The position numbers were made by a program, and so were the translations under genes. From positions 1 to 37,909 of the forward strand of contig CAJXEJ010000023.1 of NCBI GenBank assembly GCA_913052475.1: a stretch of DNA of 37,909 nt, read 5' to 3'. This document shows, piece after piece, positions 17,705 through 26,479 of the stretch. Numbering within the stretch: position 1 is the first letter of the stretch; every line of letters begins with the position of its first letter. This DNA is from an uncultured Dehalococcoidia bacterium (GTDB lineage: Bacteria > Chloroflexota > Dehalococcoidia > Lucifugimonadales > Lucifugimonadaceae). The notes under the pieces were generated by a model. The model had not been told where the DNA came from, made no database searches, and was given only the letters and a program-made list of their open reading frames with translations.

Positions 17705-18508
17705 ATGATCATCGAATGGAATGTCCACATGTTCAGTTCAGATACTGAGCGATACCCTTTCCATGAGCGAGCCGCGTACACACCAGCCGTAAAGCAACTA
17801 ACGCCCGATCCGCTTGCTGAATACCTCGAACGGATGGTCCACGAAAAGATCGACCGGGCTGTGCTGGTTCATCCGGAACCTTACGGGGATGATCACAGGT
17901 TGGCTCTAGATTGCGTGGCAGCGCGCCCTGATTTGTTCAAGACGACTGCACTGTTCTACCCGAAGGACGATGCTGCTCCAGCAAAGCTGAAGCAGCTCGT
18001 AAGTGACTATGGAGAGTCTCTCGTAGCGTTCCGGTTCCACGCTCACGAGGGCAAGCGAACGTATCTCGACTCCTTCGACGACGCCAACGTACGAGAACTG
18101 TGGAAAACGGCTGGCGAACTGGGTCTGATTATTGAACTTCACATCGGTCCCGACTATGCGGCTCAGGCAGCGAAACTCGCTAGAGAATTCAGTGAATTCA
18201 CCGTACTCGTGGATCATATGGCGGAAGCTAAATTTGGATCAGGACCTGAGTATTCCGACACGATCCGGATGAGCGAACTCGACAATGTCTACATGAAGCT
18301 CTCAGGACTCAATCACTACGCCACCGACGAACCACTCTACGAAAGCGTGATCCCGTTTAGCCGATGGGTTGCCGATTCTTTCGGTCCCGACCGAATGGTG
18401 TGGGGCAGCGGGACACCCGGTATCGTCGACTCCCATCTATCGCACTGGACTGAGGCGGACCGAGCAAAGGTCAAAGGCTGCAACCTTCAACGACTACTCG
18501 GCTTCTAA
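17705..18508 (+). CDS. Amidohydrolase_2 family protein (lactonase-like), altered active site
   Basis: A 267-residue TIM-barrel protein of the amidohydrolase-2/COG3618 type, which includes L-fucono- and L-rhamnono-lactonases and LigI-like lactonases. The start MIIEWNVHMFS keeps only one His of the usual H-x-H, and the C-terminal motif normally W-G-S-D-x-P is WGSGTP, with G236 in place of the key Asp. Other family parts remain (FRFHAHEG, IELHIGP, VLVDHMAEAKFG). GTGAG is present upstream of the ATG. The protein may be catalytically changed or inactive. Its last four bases overlap the convergent EamA gene. A second, motif-complete family member is at 25691. Confidence 0.8.
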   Translation: MIIEWNVHMFSSDTERYPFHERAAYTPAVKQLTPDPLAEYLERMVHEKIDRAVLVHPEPYGDDHRLALDCVAARPDLFKTTALFYPKDDAAPAKLKQLVSDYGESLVAFRFHAHEGKRTYLDSFDDANVRELWKTAGELGLIIELHIGPDYAAQAAKLAREFSEFTVLVDHMAEAKFGSGPEYSDTIRMSELDNVYMKLSGLNHYATDEPLYESVIPFSRWVADSFGPDRMVWGSGTPGIVDSHLSHWTEADRAKVKGCNLQRLLGF

Positions 18509-19383
18509 GGGGCAAGAGCCACGACGATTGCGCCGACACCAATCGTGGCCGCTCCGGCAATCCTGTTCGAACCGACAGATTCCTTCAAAACAATTGCTGC
18601 AAGTAGAACACCGAACACGATCGCCAGTTCTCGAAACGGACCAACGTAACTCACCGGCGCGATTCGGAATGAACTCAATACAAGTCCATATGAAGAAAAT
18701 TGCAGCAGGCCACCCGCAATCGCAACGCGCCAGTGATTTCTGAGTTCATCGGAAAAATCCGATATGTTGTAGCTTCTGCGAAGTATCGGCAGAATGCCAA
18801 GAGATCCACCCAACTGCACCATGAACATGTAGAGCAGGGGTTCAACATATTCGATGCCTTGCTTGTCCCAGTTCGAATAGCCGGCAATTAGAATGCCAGT
18901 AGCGATCGCAAACATCACCCCTCGATCAGCCAGCAGCGCACGTGGTCGCAACCAGACTTTGAGCCCTTCAGATGACGAAGCACCAACTACCACAACCCCG
19001 AGAAATATTGCGGCAATTCCAAGTGCAGCGTGGATCGAAACCGACTCTTTCAGGATTAGCACTCCGAACACCGGAATCAGTACCACACCAAGCCCCCTTG
19101 CGACTGGATATACGACTGAGAGATCGCCATGTTTGTACGCTCGCCCAAGAGTAAAGAAGTAACCAATATGAAGGATTATTGTCCCAACGACGAAAATCCA
19201 TCCGGTTGCAGATGGCGCCTTGGTAACAAGTAGATAGATCGCGAACGGAAGCACAACAACACCACCGAGAAACGCCATGAACCAGTTCGTGATCTCAGGT
19301 ACAGGGGATTTGCGAACCAGAATGTTCCAGGAGGCGTGACAGAGTGCCGCCAGTAGGACAAGTACAACCGCGGTGCCGGACAT
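18505..19383 (-). CDS. EamA/DMT-superfamily transporter
   Basis: A 292-residue inner-membrane protein with ten hydrophobic spans in two EamA repeats (about 5-137 and 150-290). It starts VVLVLLAALCHASWNILVRK, typical of the DMT family, and has the paired ILKESV motifs at the ends of both repeats (VLILKESVSIHAALG and AIVLKESVGSNRIAG). DMT carriers export or import amino acids, sugars or other small metabolites; the substrate cannot be told. It lies between an amidohydrolase gene (tail overlap of 4 bp) and a receiver-domain remnant, at the edge of the sugar-enzyme region. Confidence 0.88.
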   Translation of the reverse strand: MSGTAVVLVLLAALCHASWNILVRKSPVPEITNWFMAFLGGVVVLPFAIYLLVTKAPSATGWIFVVGTIILHIGYFFTLGRAYKHGDLSVVYPVARGLGVVLIPVFGVLILKESVSIHAALGIAAIFLGVVVVGASSSEGLKVWLRPRALLADRGVMFAIATGILIAGYSNWDKQGIEYVEPLLYMFMVQLGGSLGILPILRRSYNISDFSDELRNHWRVAIAGGLLQFSSYGLVLSSFRIAPVSYVGPFRELAIVFGVLLAAIVLKESVGSNRIAGAATIGVGAIVVALAP

Positions 19384-19395
19384 GGGAGACTCGCC

Positions 19396-19653
19396 TCAGG
19401 TGATGAACTGGGGGCTCTTATGTTCGTGATCCGCAGCAATTGCCCAGTCGCCTCGGAGTTTGACGCCACCGTCAGCCTTAGGCTTGGTGATGTACTCAAC
19501 AGTTCCGATCGAACGTACCATCGCCATGTCTTCCGGTCGGCATTTAGCGGTAACCATGATGACCGGGATAGGGCTGGTGAGAGTATCGGCTTTCAAAGTA
19601 GCGAGTGCGAGCCTTACATCGGGGCTGTCATCAACGACAAATATTCGAGCCAA
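19396..19653 (-). pseudogene. Truncated response-regulator receiver domain
   Basis: An 85-residue reading from a TTG. It begins as a receiver domain (MARIFVVDDSPDVR, acidic pair present) and jumps directly to the later part, TLTSPIPVIMVTAKCRPEDM then YITKP (switch Thr and the conserved Lys present). The middle of about 40-45 residues, including the phosphoacceptor Asp, is missing with the frame kept, as from an in-frame deletion. The remaining tail does not match an output domain. It cannot be phosphorylated in the usual way, so it is listed as a pseudogene, though it is still an open frame and could make a small protein. Confidence 0.6.
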
Positions 19654-19865
19654 TTAACTAGTCACCTCTACAAAATTCGTACACACACACTTCACATCTG
19701 TACCGTGACGGGGCACTCAGCACCTTGACAACTGATTCTTCCATAAATCGGACAGCTTTGCACCCGATACGGTTGCGGAGTTGCGAAATTACACCGGGAT
19801 CAACATCATGTATGTTACCCATCAAAATTTTACGGACATTACCCCTGCACTGAGACGAGAATGAT

Positions 19866-20939
19866 ATGCACTACCAGGATGAACGAACAACCGGCTGCCG
19901 GATCTCGGATTCATGGACGTACCGGGGACTCAAAACCGTAATTCTCGAAAACGAATTGCTAAAGGTCTCGCTGATCGCAGACAAAGGTGCCGACGTATTC
20001 GAATTCATCCACAAGAAGACTGACACCGAGTTCATGTGGCGTACACCGTGGTCGGTCAGGAACCAGGGTCTCTCTACGCCCCCAACAGGTGATGGTGACA
20101 ACATCTGGCACGACGCTTATATCGGCGGATGGCAGACCATCGCTCCAACTGGTGGGCCTCCACAGAAGTACGCCAACGCTGATCTCGGACAGCATACCGA
20201 GGCGACTCTGATGCCGTGGGACGCTGTGATCGTTGAAGATACCCCGGAAAGAGTTAGCGCAAAGTTCAGTGTGAGAACAGTACGCACGCCGTTTTGGATC
20301 GAAAAAGTTGTAACAATGCAATCTGACAGTCCCGTTCTCACCGTGACAGACACGCTTACGAATCAGGCTGAAGAAGAGTCCGAAGCGCAGTGGGGGCAGC
20401 ACGTTGCATTCGGCGATCCTTTCCTGTCTCCAAACTGCCGCCTTGATATGGCTGCTGCCGATCATTTCGTACCTCCGGGGTGGGGAGATCGCCTCAAGGA
20501 CGGTCACGTTGGCACGTGGCCAAACGCAGTCGATCCTGATGGAGACGATGTAGATATGGCGAGTTTCCCTCCGAAATCCGACCGTGTTCAGGACTACTCG
20601 GTATTCAAAAACCAAAAAGAGGGTTGGTACGCCGTCACTAATCCCGATCGTGGCGTTGGCTTCGGGCTTGCCTACCCTGTCGATACGTTCAAGTACCTCT
20701 GGTACTGGCAGGTCTTTGGCGGTGCTTTTGGATACCCGTGGTACGGTCGCACATACAACGTTGGTCTCGAGCCGTTCACGAGCCTAAGTTCAGGAATACC
20801 CGAGCCGGGAACTGACGAGCGAACCTCAATGATCTTCAAACCGGGCGAGACTAAATCGGCGACAGTTCGAGCAGTCATCTACGAAAGCACGACCGGCGTA
20901 TCTCACATCTCGCAAGATGGTGAAGTGAGCACGATCTAG
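19866..20939 (+). CDS. DUF4432 / aldose-1-epimerase-like protein (copy 1)
   Basis: A 357-residue galactose-mutarotase-fold protein of the DUF4432/aldose epimerase type. It interconverts sugar anomers or acts on a sugar derivative; the substrate is unknown. It starts MHYQDERTTGCRISDSW and contains LIADKGADVFEF, WHDAYIGGWQTIAPTGG, FKYLWYWQVFGG and YPWYGRTYNVGLEP. The paralogue at 23477 shares these blocks nearly residue for residue. No signal peptide is seen, so it is cytoplasmic. A weak SD (GAGA) precedes the ATG. It ends 77 bases from the convergent dehydratase gene. Confidence 0.82.
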   Translation: MHYQDERTTGCRISDSWTYRGLKTVILENELLKVSLIADKGADVFEFIHKKTDTEFMWRTPWSVRNQGLSTPPTGDGDNIWHDAYIGGWQTIAPTGGPPQKYANADLGQHTEATLMPWDAVIVEDTPERVSAKFSVRTVRTPFWIEKVVTMQSDSPVLTVTDTLTNQAEEESEAQWGQHVAFGDPFLSPNCRLDMAAADHFVPPGWGDRLKDGHVGTWPNAVDPDGDDVDMASFPPKSDRVQDYSVFKNQKEGWYAVTNPDRGVGFGLAYPVDTFKYLWYWQVFGGAFGYPWYGRTYNVGLEPFTSLSSGIPEPGTDERTSMIFKPGETKSATVRAVIYESTTGVSHISQDGEVSTI

Positions 20940-21016
20940 ATTTGTTACTAATCAAAGAGGCGGGAACTATGTGCGAGCCACCTGTTTCTTGCCCTCTGGT
21001 TTTAAGCTGACTCGGA

Positions 21017-22189
21017 CTACACTTCTGCCAGAACACCTTCATCGGTTTGATGGGCACGAATCCAGTCCCAATCGAGCGGAACACCGATGCCGGGACCGTC
21101 TGGTGCGTAGACATTGCCTTCGCTATCGATGCCATCGAGATCATCGTTGTAGCCGAGATAGACCGGTGCTCTGGTTGTTTTCACCTTCGGGTGAACGAGT
21201 CCAAGTTCGAAGAAGTTGGTGTTTCGTATCGAAGACATGATGTGACGGTGAACCGGTCCAGGACCATGCAATTCCACATCCAGGCCGAATCCTTCGGACG
21301 CGTGGGCGATTTTCATTGCGCCAGTCACACCACCGTCTTCGTGTGCACCGGCTCGAACGTAATCAGTCCCCTCAGCCACGATAAAGTCGACGTGCTGCTC
21401 AAGCAGGCGAATGTGCTCTGTTTGGAGCAACGGCGTCTTCACCATTTGGCGAAGTTTGCGATGTGCGAACTGCGAAACACCCCCATCCTGGTACGGATCC
21501 TCCCACCAGAAAAAATTCGCTTCATCACAGGCAAGACCAAGCCTCAGAGCATCACCAAAATTCTTGATCTCGCAGGCGGGGTCGATCAGCAGGTCCATTC
21601 GACCGTCAAACTGCTTACCAAGATTGAGGACATTGTCCACCTCGCGCTGAATATTGCTCCCTGCGAGTCCCCAGCCATGAACCTTGAATGATCGATATCC
21701 CATCTCGTAGCACTGCTCGGCAAAGTCGGCGAAATCCTGAGGAGTCTGCAGACCACCGTTTTCGTCACCATGAAGCGTCGAGGCGTATGCAGGCAACGCC
21801 TTTTTTTCGCCACCCAGTAGTCGATAAAGCGGCTCGTCGTACAGTTTGCCAGCGATGTCCCACAGGCAGATATCGATCACCCCAACACCCAACATAGCGC
21901 CGTGTCGCAGTCCGCGTTTGGTGTCGTTGTAGATCTTCTCACGAGAAAGTACGTCTTTACCAATCAGATATTGCGCAACCGTTTGAACGTCGCCAATAGC
22001 CCGTCCGATCTCAGGGTATTCACCAACGATTCCCTGATCGGTGTGAATCTGAAGGATCGTCCCGGTCTGGGTTAGTTTCGATCCTGCCTCGTAGACCATG
22101 TTGAACGTGTTGTAGTCCTTACCAACATTTTCCAACTCATGCTCGTATGTGGTGACTGACACTTTTGTAATCTTCGGACTGGCTTTCAT
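21017..22189 (-). CDS. Enolase-superfamily (mandelate racemase type) sugar-acid dehydratase
   Basis: A 390-residue enzyme of the MR/MLE branch, whose members mostly dehydrate sugar acids (fuconate, galactonate, rhamnonate and others) by abstracting the alpha proton. Metal ligands are D203 (LLIDPAC), E230 (FFWWEDP) and E258 (LLQTEH); H308 (ELHGPG) is the general acid/base candidate. The strand-2 motif is K169-V-H171 rather than K-x-K. The start is the ATG at 22187-22189 because AGGAG lies six bases upstream; an ATG two codons earlier abuts the SD, and a TTG at 22234 is unlikely. Divergent from the zinc dehydrogenase at 22399. Confidence 0.88.
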   Translation of the reverse strand: MKASPKITKVSVTTYEHELENVGKDYNTFNMVYEAGSKLTQTGTILQIHTDQGIVGEYPEIGRAIGDVQTVAQYLIGKDVLSREKIYNDTKRGLRHGAMLGVGVIDICLWDIAGKLYDEPLYRLLGGEKKALPAYASTLHGDENGGLQTPQDFADFAEQCYEMGYRSFKVHGWGLAGSNIQREVDNVLNLGKQFDGRMDLLIDPACEIKNFGDALRLGLACDEANFFWWEDPYQDGGVSQFAHRKLRQMVKTPLLQTEHIRLLEQHVDFIVAEGTDYVRAGAHEDGGVTGAMKIAHASEGFGLDVELHGPGPVHRHIMSSIRNTNFFELGLVHPKVKTTRAPVYLGYNDDLDGIDSEGNVYAPDGPGIGVPLDWDWIRAHQTDEGVLAEV

Positions 22190-22195
22190 TTCCAT

Positions 22196-22200
22196 CTCCT
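22196..22200 (-). promoter_or_regulatory. Shine-Dalgarno setting the dehydratase start
   Basis: AGGAG on the minus strand, six bases before the ATG at 22187-22189. It excludes the earlier in-frame ATG (22193-22195), which would leave no spacing. Confidence 0.6.
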
Positions 22201-22297
22201 GGGTTGTTGGGGTTGAATATCGCCTGGGTAGCAATCGAATACGGTGGCTACGGTGTTCGATTTGAATTGATTTCGCGGCGGGATGTTAGCACTAATC

Positions 22298-22316
22298 GAT
22301 GAGGCAATTCCTCATC
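22298..22316. promoter_or_regulatory. Operator-like inverted repeat GATGAGG-N5-CCTCATC
   Basis: Two perfect 7-base arms around a 5-base spacer in the 209-base divergent space between the dehydratase (minus) and zinc dehydrogenase (plus) genes. It lies 10 bases upstream of the predicted -35 of the dehydrogenase promoter. Size and symmetry suit a dimeric repressor or activator. I found no matching copy ahead of the other genes of the cluster and no regulator gene in the window. Confidence 0.55.
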
Positions 22317-22326
22317 AAACGGCCGA

Positions 22327-22354
22327 TTGCGTCATGTTGTCCCCCGTGTAGAAT
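22327..22354 (+). promoter_or_regulatory. Predicted promoter for the zinc dehydrogenase gene
   Basis: TTGCGT (22327-22332) and TAGAAT (22349-22354) with a 16-base spacer. The -10 matches five of six and the -35 four of six. The start would fall near 22361, about 38 bases before the ATG. It lies immediately downstream of the inverted repeat at 22298. Confidence 0.4.
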
Positions 22355-22398
22355 TCCGTCGAAATTCATAGCAAAGCGAACTCGATCGAAAAAACTAC

Positions 22399-23460
22399 AT
22401 GCAAGCAATCGTTTATCACGACAACAAAGATCTGCGTCTTGAAGATATTCCAGAGCCTTCACCTGGACCCGGCGAAGCAAAACTTCGAATAACCGGTACG
22501 TCGATCTGCGCAACCGATATTGAAGAGTGGCAGTATGGTCCTCTCTGGGTGCAGCACGGCTCTCCGAACGCGATGACAGGTAAGCAGACTCCGCTCGTGA
22601 TCGGTCACGAGACCGCAGGAACCGTAGTTGAACTGGGTGATGGCGTCGACAACGTCGCAGTTGGCGACCGGGTTGCGATTAACACCGTACTTACCTGCGG
22701 AACCTGCTTCTGGTGCATACGTGGTCAACAGTCTGTATGCCCAAATATGGCCGTCGCAGGGTTCATGGCGGATGGTGGACTCGCTGAGTTCATGGTTTGG
22801 CCTGCTGGAAAGCTTGTTCCGATGCCCGACAGTATCTCGGATACCGAGGGCCCACTTCTTGAACCAGCGACGGTTGCAGTACACGGGGTTCGTCGATCTG
22901 GTGTGCGACCGGGCGATAATGTAGCGATAATCGGGTGCGGCACCGTCGGGCTGTTATCAGTTCAGGCGTTCAAGGCAGCAGGAGCGCGTGTAATAGCGCT
23001 CGATATTCGGGAACAGAGCCTTACTCTCGCAAAGGAACTTGGCGCCGACGAAGTCATAAGTTCTCGCGACGAGAGCGCAGCAGGTGCCAATATACTCGAA
23101 CTCACCGGAGGGATTGGACCTGATATAGCGGTCGAAACTGCAGGTGCGAAAGAAACTCCGCGCATAGCGATCGAGTGGACGCGCCGTGGCGGAACAACTC
23201 TACTCATCGGTATCTACTCGACTACACCCGAAATCAATTTCAACAACGTTGTGGGCCCCGAACTCACCATCATCGGCTCAGTCGCTACTTCACCTGGTGA
23301 TCTTGAAGCCGCTGTCGAGCTCGTCGGAAGCGGAAAGATCAATGTCAAACCGCTAATCTCGGAGATCGTCCCGCTCAGCAGGGCAATGGAAGACGGTTTC
23401 GAACGAATGCTCGATCCCAACAAAGACATTTACAGAATCGTTATTCAGCCAATTTCCTGA
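22399..23460 (+). CDS. Zinc-dependent medium-chain alcohol/polyol dehydrogenase
   Basis: A 353-residue MDR-family NAD(P)-dependent dehydrogenase of the sorbitol/threonine dehydrogenase type. Catalytic zinc residues: C37 (SICATD), H70 and E71 (GHE). Structural zinc: C100, C103, C106 and C114. The Rossmann motif is GCGTVGLLSVQAF, followed by an acidic residue in ALDIREQ, which favours NAD. In this setting it could oxidise a sugar, or a 2-keto-3-deoxy sugar acid produced by the divergent dehydratase. Sixteen bases separate it from the DUF4432 copy 2, so the two are co-transcribed. Confidence 0.92.
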   Translation: MQAIVYHDNKDLRLEDIPEPSPGPGEAKLRITGTSICATDIEEWQYGPLWVQHGSPNAMTGKQTPLVIGHETAGTVVELGDGVDNVAVGDRVAINTVLTCGTCFWCIRGQQSVCPNMAVAGFMADGGLAEFMVWPAGKLVPMPDSISDTEGPLLEPATVAVHGVRRSGVRPGDNVAIIGCGTVGLLSVQAFKAAGARVIALDIREQSLTLAKELGADEVISSRDESAAGANILELTGGIGPDIAVETAGAKETPRIAIEWTRRGGTTLLIGIYSTTPEINFNNVVGPELTIIGSVATSPGDLEAAVELVGSGKINVKPLISEIVPLSRAMEDGFERMLDPNKDIYRIVIQPIS

Positions 23461-23476
23461 GGAACTAGAAGTCAAT

Positions 23477-24559
23477 ATGCACTATCAAGAAGAACGAACG
23501 ACAGGATGTCGTGTTTCGGACGCATGGACCTATCGGGGGCTGAAAACGGTTGTTCTTGAAAACGAAATCGTGTGTGTGACGGTACTTGCCGACAAAGGTG
23601 CCGACATCTACAGCTTTGTACACAAGCCGACCGATACCGACTTCATGTGGCGTACACCGTGGGGAGTCCGAGATCCCAAAACAACCGTACCGCCAACGGG
23701 TGATCCCAGTTCGATCTGGCTCGATTTCTACGAAGGTGGCTGGCAAACAGTTGTCCCGCATGGTGGTTACCCAGATCAGATCTACGGGGCTGATTACGGA
23801 ATTCACGGTGACGTGAGCCTCATACCCTGGGATGCACAGGTTGTTGAGGACACACCGTACAAGGTTAGTGTTCGCTTTACGGCGAAAAGCTTGCGCATGC
23901 CGATGAAAATTTCAAAGACGCTATCGCTGGTTGCGGGTTCGCCAACGCTCAAAGTTGAAGAATCGGTCACCAATGAAGGAGAGGAAGATCTCGACATCGT
24001 CTGGCTAGAACATATAGCAATCGGCCCGCCTGTTTTGTCGGATAAAGCCCGGCTGTATTTACCTGATTCCAAGCTGTTAAGTCATCCGGAAAGTATAGAT
24101 CCAAATTCGAAAATAGAGCCTGACTTCACTGGTGACTGGCCTAATATGAACGCCAAAGATGGTTCCGTGTTGGATTTCACGCGCATTCCGCCGAAAGAGG
24201 ATCGATCTCTGGACATGGCTTACATGACCGAGATGACCGAAGGCTGGTATGCATTATTGAATGGAGACACCAATCTCGGTTGGGCGGTCAGCTATCCGGT
24301 CGAGACGTTCAAGTACCTCTGGTACTGGCGTAATTTTGGCGGTGGATACGGATATCCGTGGTACGGAAAATGCTACAACGCGGGTCTTGAACCCTGCACA
24401 AGCTTCGGAAATGGCGGTATAAAACAAGCCCAAGAAAATGGTACCGCTCTGAACATCGCTGCCGGAAAGACGCTATCGGTGACTATCAGTGCTGGACCGT
24501 TCACTGGATCGGGAGCCGTAAAACGAGTCGATCCAGAAGGCAACGTTACGTTTGGATAA
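23477..24559 (+). CDS. DUF4432 / aldose-1-epimerase-like protein (copy 2)
   Basis: A 360-residue paralogue of the protein at 19866. Both start MHYQ-ERTTGCR-SD and share TYRGLKTV, LADKGAD, FMWRTPW, YPVETFKYLWYW and YGYPWYGKCYNAGLEP; by eye nearly half of all residues agree. The middle differs (copy 2 carries KLLSHPESIDPNSKIEPDF), so they may act on different sugars. It follows the zinc dehydrogenase after 16 bases, with GAGG upstream of the ATG, and precedes the aldo/keto reductase by 71 bases. It likely supplies the right anomer or epimer to a sugar dehydrogenase. Confidence 0.82.
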   Translation: MHYQEERTTGCRVSDAWTYRGLKTVVLENEIVCVTVLADKGADIYSFVHKPTDTDFMWRTPWGVRDPKTTVPPTGDPSSIWLDFYEGGWQTVVPHGGYPDQIYGADYGIHGDVSLIPWDAQVVEDTPYKVSVRFTAKSLRMPMKISKTLSLVAGSPTLKVEESVTNEGEEDLDIVWLEHIAIGPPVLSDKARLYLPDSKLLSHPESIDPNSKIEPDFTGDWPNMNAKDGSVLDFTRIPPKEDRSLDMAYMTEMTEGWYALLNGDTNLGWAVSYPVETFKYLWYWRNFGGGYGYPWYGKCYNAGLEPCTSFGNGGIKQAQENGTALNIAAGKTLSVTISAGPFTGSGAVKRVDPEGNVTFG

Positions 24560-24630
24560 GTAATCGAATTCGATGCCGATCGTCATAATATTTCATCTAA
24601 TAATCGGCAATAAAACAGACAGGATTAGTA

Positions 24631-25632
24631 ATGCGAAAGCGAATGTTTGGTAACTCAGGGCTTGAAACCTCCGTCATTGGATACGGCGGGTGGCCTATGG
24701 GCCGCGGAATGTACGGCGCGTTCGATGACGACCAGGCGATAGCCGCTGCGCGCGCATCGTACGAGAACGGCATCACGTTGTTCGATACCGCGGCCGTGTA
24801 CGGATGGGGTTACGGCGAAACGCTGATGGGCAGGGCGCTAAAGGGCATTCGTGAAGACGTAGTTCTGGTCACCAAGGGTGCACGAGAATGGGTTCGAGAC
24901 AATCCCGACAATCGCGCCGCTACCGTTTCTGACTCGGATCCGAAACGTTTGCTCGCTTCGATCGATGAAAGCCTGCAACGGCTTCAGACCGACTACATCG
25001 ATCTTTTCCTGATCCACTGGCCCGATCACACACGTGCTTTCTCGGAGCCGATGGAGGCTCTCGAGCAAGCGAAGAAGGCAGGCAAAATCTGCCACACTGG
25101 TGTTTCCAACTTCAGCGTTGCCATGATGGCCGAGAGTCGAGAAACAAGTCAGATCATTACGAACCAGATCGGGTACCACATCTTCGACCGACGTCCCGAA
25201 GCCGAAGTGATGCCTTATGTTCGAGAAAACGGCATGGGAATCATGGCTTATGGCTCGCTATCACACGGACTCCTGACCGGCACGTGGGGTGCCGACAAGA
25301 CGTTCGCAGACGACGATTGGCGCCGCGGCGGAGCGAACTTCGGCATCAGTTCGTGGGGTCCCGATAACCTTGCTGCGAACGTTGCTGTCGTTGAAAAGCT
25401 GAAAGTAATCGCAGCCGACCACGGTAAGACGATTCCGCAGCTAGCTATCGCCTGGGTACTCGCCAACGATTCGATTAGCGTTGCGTTGGCGGGATCAGTA
25501 ACTCCCGCCGAAGCAACTGAAAACCTTGGCGGTGACTGGGAGATGTCGGCGGATCTCAAGAAAGTAATAGACGACCTCGTGCTTGCAGAAGGTTCCGGTG
25601 TCGGTACATCCGGCATGGAAATCGCCACTTAG
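24631..25632 (+). CDS. Aldo/keto reductase (sugar dehydrogenase candidate)
   Basis: A 333-residue AKR TIM-barrel oxidoreductase. The catalytic tetrad is D52, Y57, K82 (LVTKGA) and H129 (DLFLIHWPD). It starts MRKRMFGNSGLETSVIGYGG, typical for the family. Some AKRs of this type oxidise L-fucose, D-arabinose or L-galactose to the lactone, which fits its place between a sugar epimerase and a lactonase-type amidohydrolase. Other AKRs reduce aldehydes, so the direction is inference. AGGA lies about seven bases before the ATG. The next gene starts 58 bases downstream. Confidence 0.9.
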   Translation: MRKRMFGNSGLETSVIGYGGWPMGRGMYGAFDDDQAIAAARASYENGITLFDTAAVYGWGYGETLMGRALKGIREDVVLVTKGAREWVRDNPDNRAATVSDSDPKRLLASIDESLQRLQTDYIDLFLIHWPDHTRAFSEPMEALEQAKKAGKICHTGVSNFSVAMMAESRETSQIITNQIGYHIFDRRPEAEVMPYVRENGMGIMAYGSLSHGLLTGTWGADKTFADDDWRRGGANFGISSWGPDNLAANVAVVEKLKVIAADHGKTIPQLAIAWVLANDSISVALAGSVTPAEATENLGGDWEMSADLKKVIDDLVLAEGSGVGTSGMEIAT

Positions 25633-25690
25633 GTAGAACGCATCACCAGACCCAGAGAAAATCCAAAGAAAAAGTAGCGAGCTACCGCAA

Positions 25691-26479
25691 ATGATCATCG
25701 ACACCCATTGCCACGCAGGGCAAAACTGGTTCCTGCCCATCGAATCGCTTGAGTTCGAGATGAATCAGGTGGGTGTCGATGCTGCGGTGCTCATTCAGCA
25801 CGGTGGAACGTACAACAACGACTACCTGTTCGAAGAAGCTGCCAAGCGCGGTGATCGCTTCAAAGTGGTCGTGATGGTCGACCCGACTGATCCAGATCCG
25901 CTTGGAACGCTCGAGAAGTTGGCAGGGCAGGGTGCTGCCGGGGTGCGTATTGCCCCCGACGGCGCGTTTGACGCACTCTCGGATGTGACAGATATCTGGC
26001 GACGGGCTGGTGAGCTGGGACTGGCGATCAGTTCACTTGGTAACGCGAAGCAATTCTCTGCACCAACTTTCAAAAAGATCATCGATGATTGCCCCGATAC
26101 ACAGATCGTGATCGAGCACCTCGCAGGCGTCGGAATCACTGATCCGCCGTACACCGACTACGAGTCGGCACTCAAATGCGCACAACGTCCGAACATCACC
26201 CTCAAGGTTCCAGGATTGGGTGAAATCACACGTCGACCGCCGATCCTGTTGCCCGATTTCCGGTTCGACAACATCCCACCGCTATTCGAGATGGCGCACG
26301 AAGCTTTCGGAGCCGATCGAATGATGTGGGGCAGCGACTACCCGCCGAGTGCCGGTCGTGAAGGCTATGGCAATGCGCTCGAAGGCGTCAGGAATCATCC
26401 GGCGTTTGCCATGGGTGACGACGTTGATTGGGTACTGGGCGGAACGGCAGCGCGTGTGTGGGGCTTCGATAAAGGCTGA
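25691..26479 (+). CDS. Amidohydrolase_2 family protein (lactonase candidate)
   Basis: A 262-residue TIM-barrel amidohydrolase with complete motifs: H6-C-H8 near the N-terminus (IIDTHCH), HLAGVGI in the middle and D216 in WGSDYP. The family includes lactonases acting on sugar lactones, and decarboxylases. As the last gene after an aldo/keto reductase it would fit hydrolysis of a sugar lactone to the sugar acid. The catalytic motif set contrasts with the family member at 17705, where the matching Asp is Gly. It ends 40 bases before the convergent DegV gene. Confidence 0.83.
   Translation: MIIDTHCHAGQNWFLPIESLEFEMNQVGVDAAVLIQHGGTYNNDYLFEEAAKRGDRFKVVVMVDPTDPDPLGTLEKLAGQGAAGVRIAPDGAFDALSDVTDIWRRAGELGLAISSLGNAKQFSAPTFKKIIDDCPDTQIVIEHLAGVGITDPPYTDYESALKCAQRPNITLKVPGLGEITRRPPILLPDFRFDNIPPLFEMAHEAFGADRMMWGSDYPPSAGREGYGNALEGVRNHPAFAMGDDVDWVLGGTAARVWGFDKG

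Follow-up and report, generated by a model that had tools for sequence, protein, structure and literature searches.

In this paper we describe a cluster of eight genes at positions 17705-26479 of contig CAJXEJ010000023.1 (C23), the whole of which, 37,909 nucleotides, is called the window. The contig comes from an uncultured Dehalococcoidia genome (GCA_913052475.1; 2.13 Mb in 86 contigs, 91% complete) that belongs to SAR202 group I, genus "Candidatus Lucifugimonas", and whose nearest relatives among named genomes are from the same group, including that of the cultured Candidatus Lucifugimonas marina JH1073 (L006). With slightly better than even confidence, we interpret the cluster as one of the parallel non-phosphorylative modules for the oxidation of sugars or sugar acids in SAR202 group I, with DUF4432 proteins acting as mutarotases. 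An earlier note on this DNA had named eight genes within 9 kb, and all of them were confirmed: each open reading frame is present at its position and scores above the curated Pfam cut-off for its family. In order, they encode an amidohydrolase (AH1), an EamA permease, a DUF4432 protein (DUF4432-A), an enolase-superfamily protein of the mandelate racemase subgroup (MR), an MDR dehydrogenase, a second DUF4432 protein (DUF4432-B), an aldo/keto reductase (AKR) and a second amidohydrolase (AH2).

Conservation of the cluster and the contribution of chance

The protein families found in the cluster are common in this genome, which contains 61 MR genes, about 15 AKR genes, 12 Amidohydro_2 genes and 21 HpcH/HpaI matches. 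When genes were placed at random, MR, AKR and amidohydrolase came together within 6 kb somewhere in 23% of the trials. The gene list alone is therefore weak evidence, and we rejected co-location by itself as proof of a pathway. Apart from the MR gene of the window, none of the 61 has an AKR as well as an amidohydrolase for a neighbour.

It is the conservation of the cluster, together with the co-occurrence of its genes, that lifts it above chance. The earlier note had counted a neighbourhood not conserved in relatives, together with enzymes inactive on sugars, as evidence against its pathway; we find the neighbourhood kept in the genus and the family and, in part, in another family of the order. 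About 12 close loci show the same order, EamA-DUF4432A-MR-MDR-DUF4432B-AKR-AH2, mostly at 75-95% protein identity. In Ca. L. marina (L006) the counterparts of MR, AH2, AKR, MDR and the two DUF4432 proteins have 85-95% identity. More distant members of the family (58-71% identity for DUF4432-B) keep subsets of these genes and other genes come and go, with EamA staying beside DUF4432-A or MR in most of them. Outside this family, one genome of the family f4, in the same order, has MR, DUF4432 and MDR within 6.6 kb, near lepA and not near his genes. An M24 peptidase and a xylose-isomerase-like gene also lie at this locus, as does an EamA gene that is not closely related to the one in the window. 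The MR there is only 43% identical to the window MR, which makes it about as distant as the nearest paralogue in the window's own genome.

Co-occurrence extends to genomes in which the genes are not neighbours. In the order, sampled by 79 genomes, DUF4432 is found together with the MR orthologue, often unlinked, in 15 genomes against 5.2 expected (p=5e-8; counted by family, 8 against 3.5, p=0.001), DUF4432 and AKR in 7 against 2.3 (p=5e-4), and MR and AKR co-occur where they are unlinked (p=8e-5); neither the relatedness of the genomes nor their size enters into these p-values, and the cut-offs used for orthology are arbitrary.

Some relatives have additional genes in the cluster. One sub-lineage (L032:7881-14936, also L031, L033 and L034) has gained an inosine-uridine nucleoside hydrolase gene divergent from MDR and, downstream of AH2, a SelA/aminotransferase-V-like pyridoxal phosphate (PLP) enzyme, gains that hint at a different substrate. 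In L018 and L019 two tandem NHL-repeat beta-propeller genes lie directly upstream of MDR-DUF4432B (L018:6876-8849), and a HAD hydrolase sits between AKR and AH2.

Predicted activities of the encoded proteins

DUF4432-A (19866-20939, plus strand) and DUF4432-B (23477-24559, plus strand) are the sole DUF4432 genes in the 2.13 Mb genome. A search of the PDB with the single sequence of DUF4432-A gave no match, and a profile was required: built from 53 members, it matches the putative aldose 1-epimerase 3ty1 (E 4e-7). The AlphaFold2 (AF2) model of DUF4432-B (pLDDT 92) also has 3ty1 as its best match (Z 32.7), followed by GalM/YeaD-type enzymes (Z 22-28), and the predicted structure shows the beta-sandwich fold of aldose mutarotases. 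H110, H179 and D233 are present in all 53 DUF4432 sequences and E305 in 52 of the 52 that cover it, and all four align with identical residues in 3ty1. The GalM mutants named in PDB titles (H96, H170, D243, E304) make up the same kind of His/His/Asp/Glu set. DUF4432 thus shares its fold and four catalytic residues with the aldose 1-epimerase/galactose mutarotase superfamily (3ty1, GalM, YeaD), but differs from these proteins in having only about 15% identity and a Pfam family of its own. Judging from the model and these residues, DUF4432 proteins probably flip anomers, as mutarotases do. The two proteins form separate old clades (support 100/100), and we reject a tandem duplication inside Lucifugimonas as the source of the pair.

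The genes found beside DUF4432 in other lineages are mostly sugar-catabolic. They include, among others, SMP-30-type lactonases (directly upstream of DUF4432 in the SAR202 genome L037 and, by position, in L039), Gfo/Idh oxidoreductases and xylose-isomerase-like barrels. A Gfo/Idh gene also adjoins DUF4432 in L016 and L019, and a xylose-isomerase-like gene is found nearby in L161. In other phyla the neighbours are FGGY kinases, arabinose-isomerase-like genes, LacI and sugar ABC transport genes, and DUF4432 is therefore probably a general group of sugar mutarotase-like proteins. We found no literature on DUF4432 function, and NCBIfam has no DUF4432 model; no cluster gene reaches the cut-off of an NCBIfam equivalog.

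The MR gene (21017-22234, minus strand) encodes a probable acid-sugar dehydratase, to judge from its active site. K184-x-H186, D218, E245, E273 and the D291-H323 dyad are invariant in 25 of 25 relatives, giving the lysine at strand 2, the three metal ligands after strands 3-5 and the His-Asp dyad of the mandelate racemase subgroup. Within its genome this protein is an outlier. It is the weakest full-length MR gene against Pfam among the 61, it has no NCBIfam match at 1e-30, which about 50 of its 60 paralogues have, and only one paralogue (L159, 46%) exceeds 30% identity to it. The score against the L-rhamnonate dehydratase model is 49.6 bits with a cut-off of 393, and its NCBIfam hits include no L-fuconate dehydratase model. 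The nearest solved relatives are 1rvk, 4hcd and 4mmw (E ~1e-44), structures of the Agrobacterium enzyme GalrD-III, a galactarate dehydratase acting on m-galactarate/D-galacturonate. The two proteins have in common the K-x-H-x-W motif and the MR metal and dyad residues, but they are distant, and another MR protein of the same genome (L137, with a KLHTW motif) may be the better GalrD-III candidate. Since the window MR is kin to GalrD-III, a hexuronate, an aldarate or a rare aldose would fit this dehydratase better than L-fucose.

Two putative dehydrogenases with intact active sites are encoded. The zinc-dependent MDR protein (22399-23460, plus strand) retains its catalytic and structural zinc ligands and is of the polyol/sorbitol/IolM-like type; its best NCBIfam match is scyllo-inosose 3-dehydrogenase IolM (203.7 bits, below the cut-off of 450). 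The AKR (24631-25632, plus strand) conserves the Asp-Tyr-Lys-His tetrad (D52/Y57/K82/H129), resembles GSP69, IolS and YdjG, and has IolS among its best solved relatives. The EamA/DMT-family permease (18505-19383, minus strand) is a candidate carrier.

AH2 (25691-26479, plus strand) has invariant H6, H8, H143 and D216, and its profile matches 2ffi, 4i6k and 4dlf; a fold search gives the same group, the COG3618/LigI-type lactonases. The structure 4dlf belongs to the Burkholderia COG3618 set known as L-fucono-lactonase. Against the NCBIfam equivalog for L-fucono-1,5-lactonase AH2 does not reach the cut-off (31.4 bits, cut-off 400). From these residues and matches we regard AH2 as a probable lactonase. 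AH1 (17705-18508, plus strand), which is genus-restricted and conserved over 267 residues in several congeners, has an asparagine for the first histidine of the HxH motif (N-x-H) and WGSG for WGSD, by which the catalytic aspartate becomes glycine, in the intact copies aligned. It is frameshifted in L022, reduced to a remnant of 52 residues in L005, and was not detected in L004, L008, L009 and L041. We rejected AH1 as a second lactonase on its active-site residues; a lactonase function is unlikely because two of these are lost and the gene decays in relatives. AH1 probably takes no functional part in the pathway, and it possibly represents a non-hydrolytic paralogue under decay.

MDR, DUF4432-B, AKR and AH2 form a tight run on the plus strand (22399-26479, with gaps of 16, 71 and 58 nucleotides), which looks like an operon, and the EamA gene overlaps the end of AH1 by 4 nucleotides. 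The cluster is flanked by housekeeping genes, named here from their open reading frames, and their orthologues were tracked in the relatives. To the left are genes for an aroB-like dehydroquinate synthase and a threonine-synthase-like protein, to the right DegV, HisS and more his genes. On the minus strand at 19414-19653 of the window lies a shortened gene for a stand-alone response-regulator receiver. In most congeners this gene is intact with about 128 residues (for example L006:5756-6142), and because its homology is compressed into 240 nucleotides here, it has an internal deletion.

The order of steps that we propose is built on folds, catalytic residues and conservation; the reactions, their order and the substrate we infer. 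A substrate imported by EamA or another carrier would have its anomers, or its closed and open forms, interconverted by the two DUF4432 proteins, which perhaps also act on a later lactol or keto-acid intermediate. AKR or MDR would oxidise the hemiacetal carbon to a lactone, and the remaining dehydrogenase might oxidise a secondary alcohol later in the route. AH2 would then open the lactone, and the aldonate or aldarate so formed would be dehydrated by MR, giving a 2-keto-3-deoxy acid. The end of the route might fall to an aldolase from outside the cluster, for example one of the 21 HpcH/HpaI genes, alongside or in place of a second oxidation. AH1 is probably dispensable. In the relative L019 an HpcH/HpaI aldolase adjoins the cluster; this gene and the SMP-30 lactonases upstream of DUF4432 are both consistent with a logic of lactones and keto-deoxy acids.

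Weighing the alternatives

Several observations weigh against a dedicated oxidation module, in addition to the limits given above for the p-values. The conservation at family level is mostly found at one syntenic site (aroB...hisS), and part of it may therefore be plain synteny. AH2 and DUF4432 are not significantly associated (p=0.11 for the whole order and 0.25 when the family is left out), so that the link of AH2 to the rest may be local. The eight genes do not form a single transcription unit, with strands mixed and MR and EamA on the minus strand, and no aldolase, FAH-type hydrolase or regulator is found among them. The earlier note had seen a candidate for each role of a sugar oxidation pathway. 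Mutarotase, dehydrogenases, COG3618-type lactonase and acid-sugar dehydratase do fit, but the closing aldolase or FAH hydrolase is missing and AH1 looks catalytically degenerate, so that not every role is filled. Its suggestion of an algal polysaccharide as the source is not supported, as neither a glycoside hydrolase nor a sulfatase is encoded by any of the eight genes.

One explanation is that the genes share no pathway, and that members of expanded families were brought together by chance and are kept by the aroB-hisS synteny. The family sizes and the random placements described above would suit this, as would the syntenic position of the site within the family and the use of both strands. 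We nevertheless consider it unlikely, since DUF4432 with MR, and MR with AKR, co-occur where they are unlinked, since MR, DUF4432 and MDR stand together between different flanks in f4, and since the core stays in place when flanking genes are gained or lost. The match of AH2 to 4dlf would agree with the canonical non-phosphorylative pathway for L-fucose or L-rhamnose, known from Xanthomonas and Sphingomonas and reconstructed for Ca. L. marina; the earlier note had drawn on such routes as its model. Among the eight genes Pfam finds no SDR, RhaM-type mutarotase or FAH gene, and both MR and AH2 score far below the respective NCBIfam cut-offs. According to PMC10444878, Ca. L. marina grows better when supplied with L-fucose or L-rhamnose, with the lactones and acids of these sugars, or with ascorbate, and the results for the two sugars and their derivatives speak for such a pathway in the genus. 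RhaM-type mutarotases lie on another contig (C1) of the same genome. With the gene types of the published clusters absent, RhaM elsewhere and a dehydratase that stands far from the rhamnonate model, L-fucose and L-rhamnose are not favoured, and we rate this assignment as quite improbable. On C1, two RhaM-family genes stand on opposite strands within 750 nucleotides (L166:9381-10155), with an amidohydrolase-2 about 2.5 kb away. The pair was considered as a marker of a complete fucose/rhamnose operon, which was not borne out, as an amidohydrolase-2 is the only one of the larger open reading frames checked nearby that fits.

A module for a cyclitol or keto-sugar is another alternative. The substrate would here be of the inositol or glycoside type. 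Its ring carbons would be oxidised by the IolM-like MDR and the IolS-like AKR and its ring opened by AH2, which would leave DUF4432 to act on a lactol product, for example a deoxy-uronate. Besides the IolM and IolS matches, the neighbours of DUF4432 in relatives suggest this: the Gfo/Idh and xylose-isomerase-like genes already named, a row of MDR, beta-lactamase-fold hydrolase and DUF4432 in L074, and a Caldilineales locus (L056:1064-11065) in which a plus-strand DUF4432 gene directly follows an iol-type operon with KduI/IolB, PfkB, a thiamine pyrophosphate (TPP) enzyme, Aldedh, MDR, Gfo/Idh and a xylose-isomerase-like gene. L051 has a similar layout to L056, judged by gene sizes. It is this adjacency to inositol-catabolism genes in Caldilineales that keeps the alternative live. 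We hold it to be improbable all the same. A search for IolB, IolC, IolD and IolE that covered the eight genes found none of them, and a cyclitol would enter its route without the help of a mutarotase. Known inositol routes include neither an acid-sugar dehydratase of the MR type nor a lactonase-type amidohydrolase such as AH2. The MDR of Caldilineales shares only 28% identity with that of the window, and these protein families serve many sugars. A bolder version of the oxidation module, which we put forward only tentatively and think rather doubtful, is that DUF4432 is an unrecognised mutarotase-type family which, with the KxH-type MR, marks an undescribed oxidative route across SAR202 for a sugar or a cyclitol-derived acid, outside the fucose, rhamnose, pentose and galactarate pathways.

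Relation to known systems

The locus is well suited to the assignment of a substrate. SAR202 group I bacteria abound in the ocean, and hardly any of the 60-80 enolase-superfamily genes that they carry has a substrate assigned to it. Here is the sole MR gene of 61 flanked by both an AKR and an amidohydrolase, tied by conservation to DUF4432, in a genus with a cultured representative. A substrate assigned at this locus would also give DUF4432 its first function.

The expansion of enolases in SAR202 was described by Saw et al. 2020 (PMC6946804), and Lim et al. 2023, who cultivated the genus Ca. Lucifugimonas, propose in the text of PMC10444878 that paralogues of COG1028, 0667, 3618, 4948, 1063, 3836 and 0329 form parallel non-phosphorylative pathways. 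By Pfam, the window has the same families in the same genus (AKR, MDR, MR and amidohydrolase-2), and the logic of sugar to lactone to acid to keto-deoxy acid is common to both. The published proposal differs in pooling COG paralogues genome-wide and in reconstructing routes for L-fucose and L-rhamnose, unlike the single cluster treated here. The main-text passages of PMC10444878 do not describe the window cluster or use the word 'epimerase', and in main-text passages of the SAR202 literature we found no mention of the specific gene set, the DUF4432 pair or a KxH-type MR. The earlier note did not recognise the gene set as described, which holds for the specific set with DUF4432 only, because the general idea for SAR202 group I is already in print with the same COG sets and growth experiments.

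The non-phosphorylating L-fucose pathway FucM-A-B-C-F-G, reviewed in PMC11199699, has four roles in common with the cluster, those of a mutarotase, a dehydrogenase, a COG3618 lactonase and a dehydratase of the enolase superfamily. In the cluster, however, DUF4432 would replace FucM, the oxidations would fall to AKR and MDR, and genes of the FucF and FucG types are missing. The bacterial iol operon for myo-inositol is linked to the cluster by its adjacency to DUF4432 in Caldilineales and by the IolM-like MDR and IolS-like AKR, but in place of IolB, IolC, IolD and IolE the cluster has the MR dehydratase and AH2.

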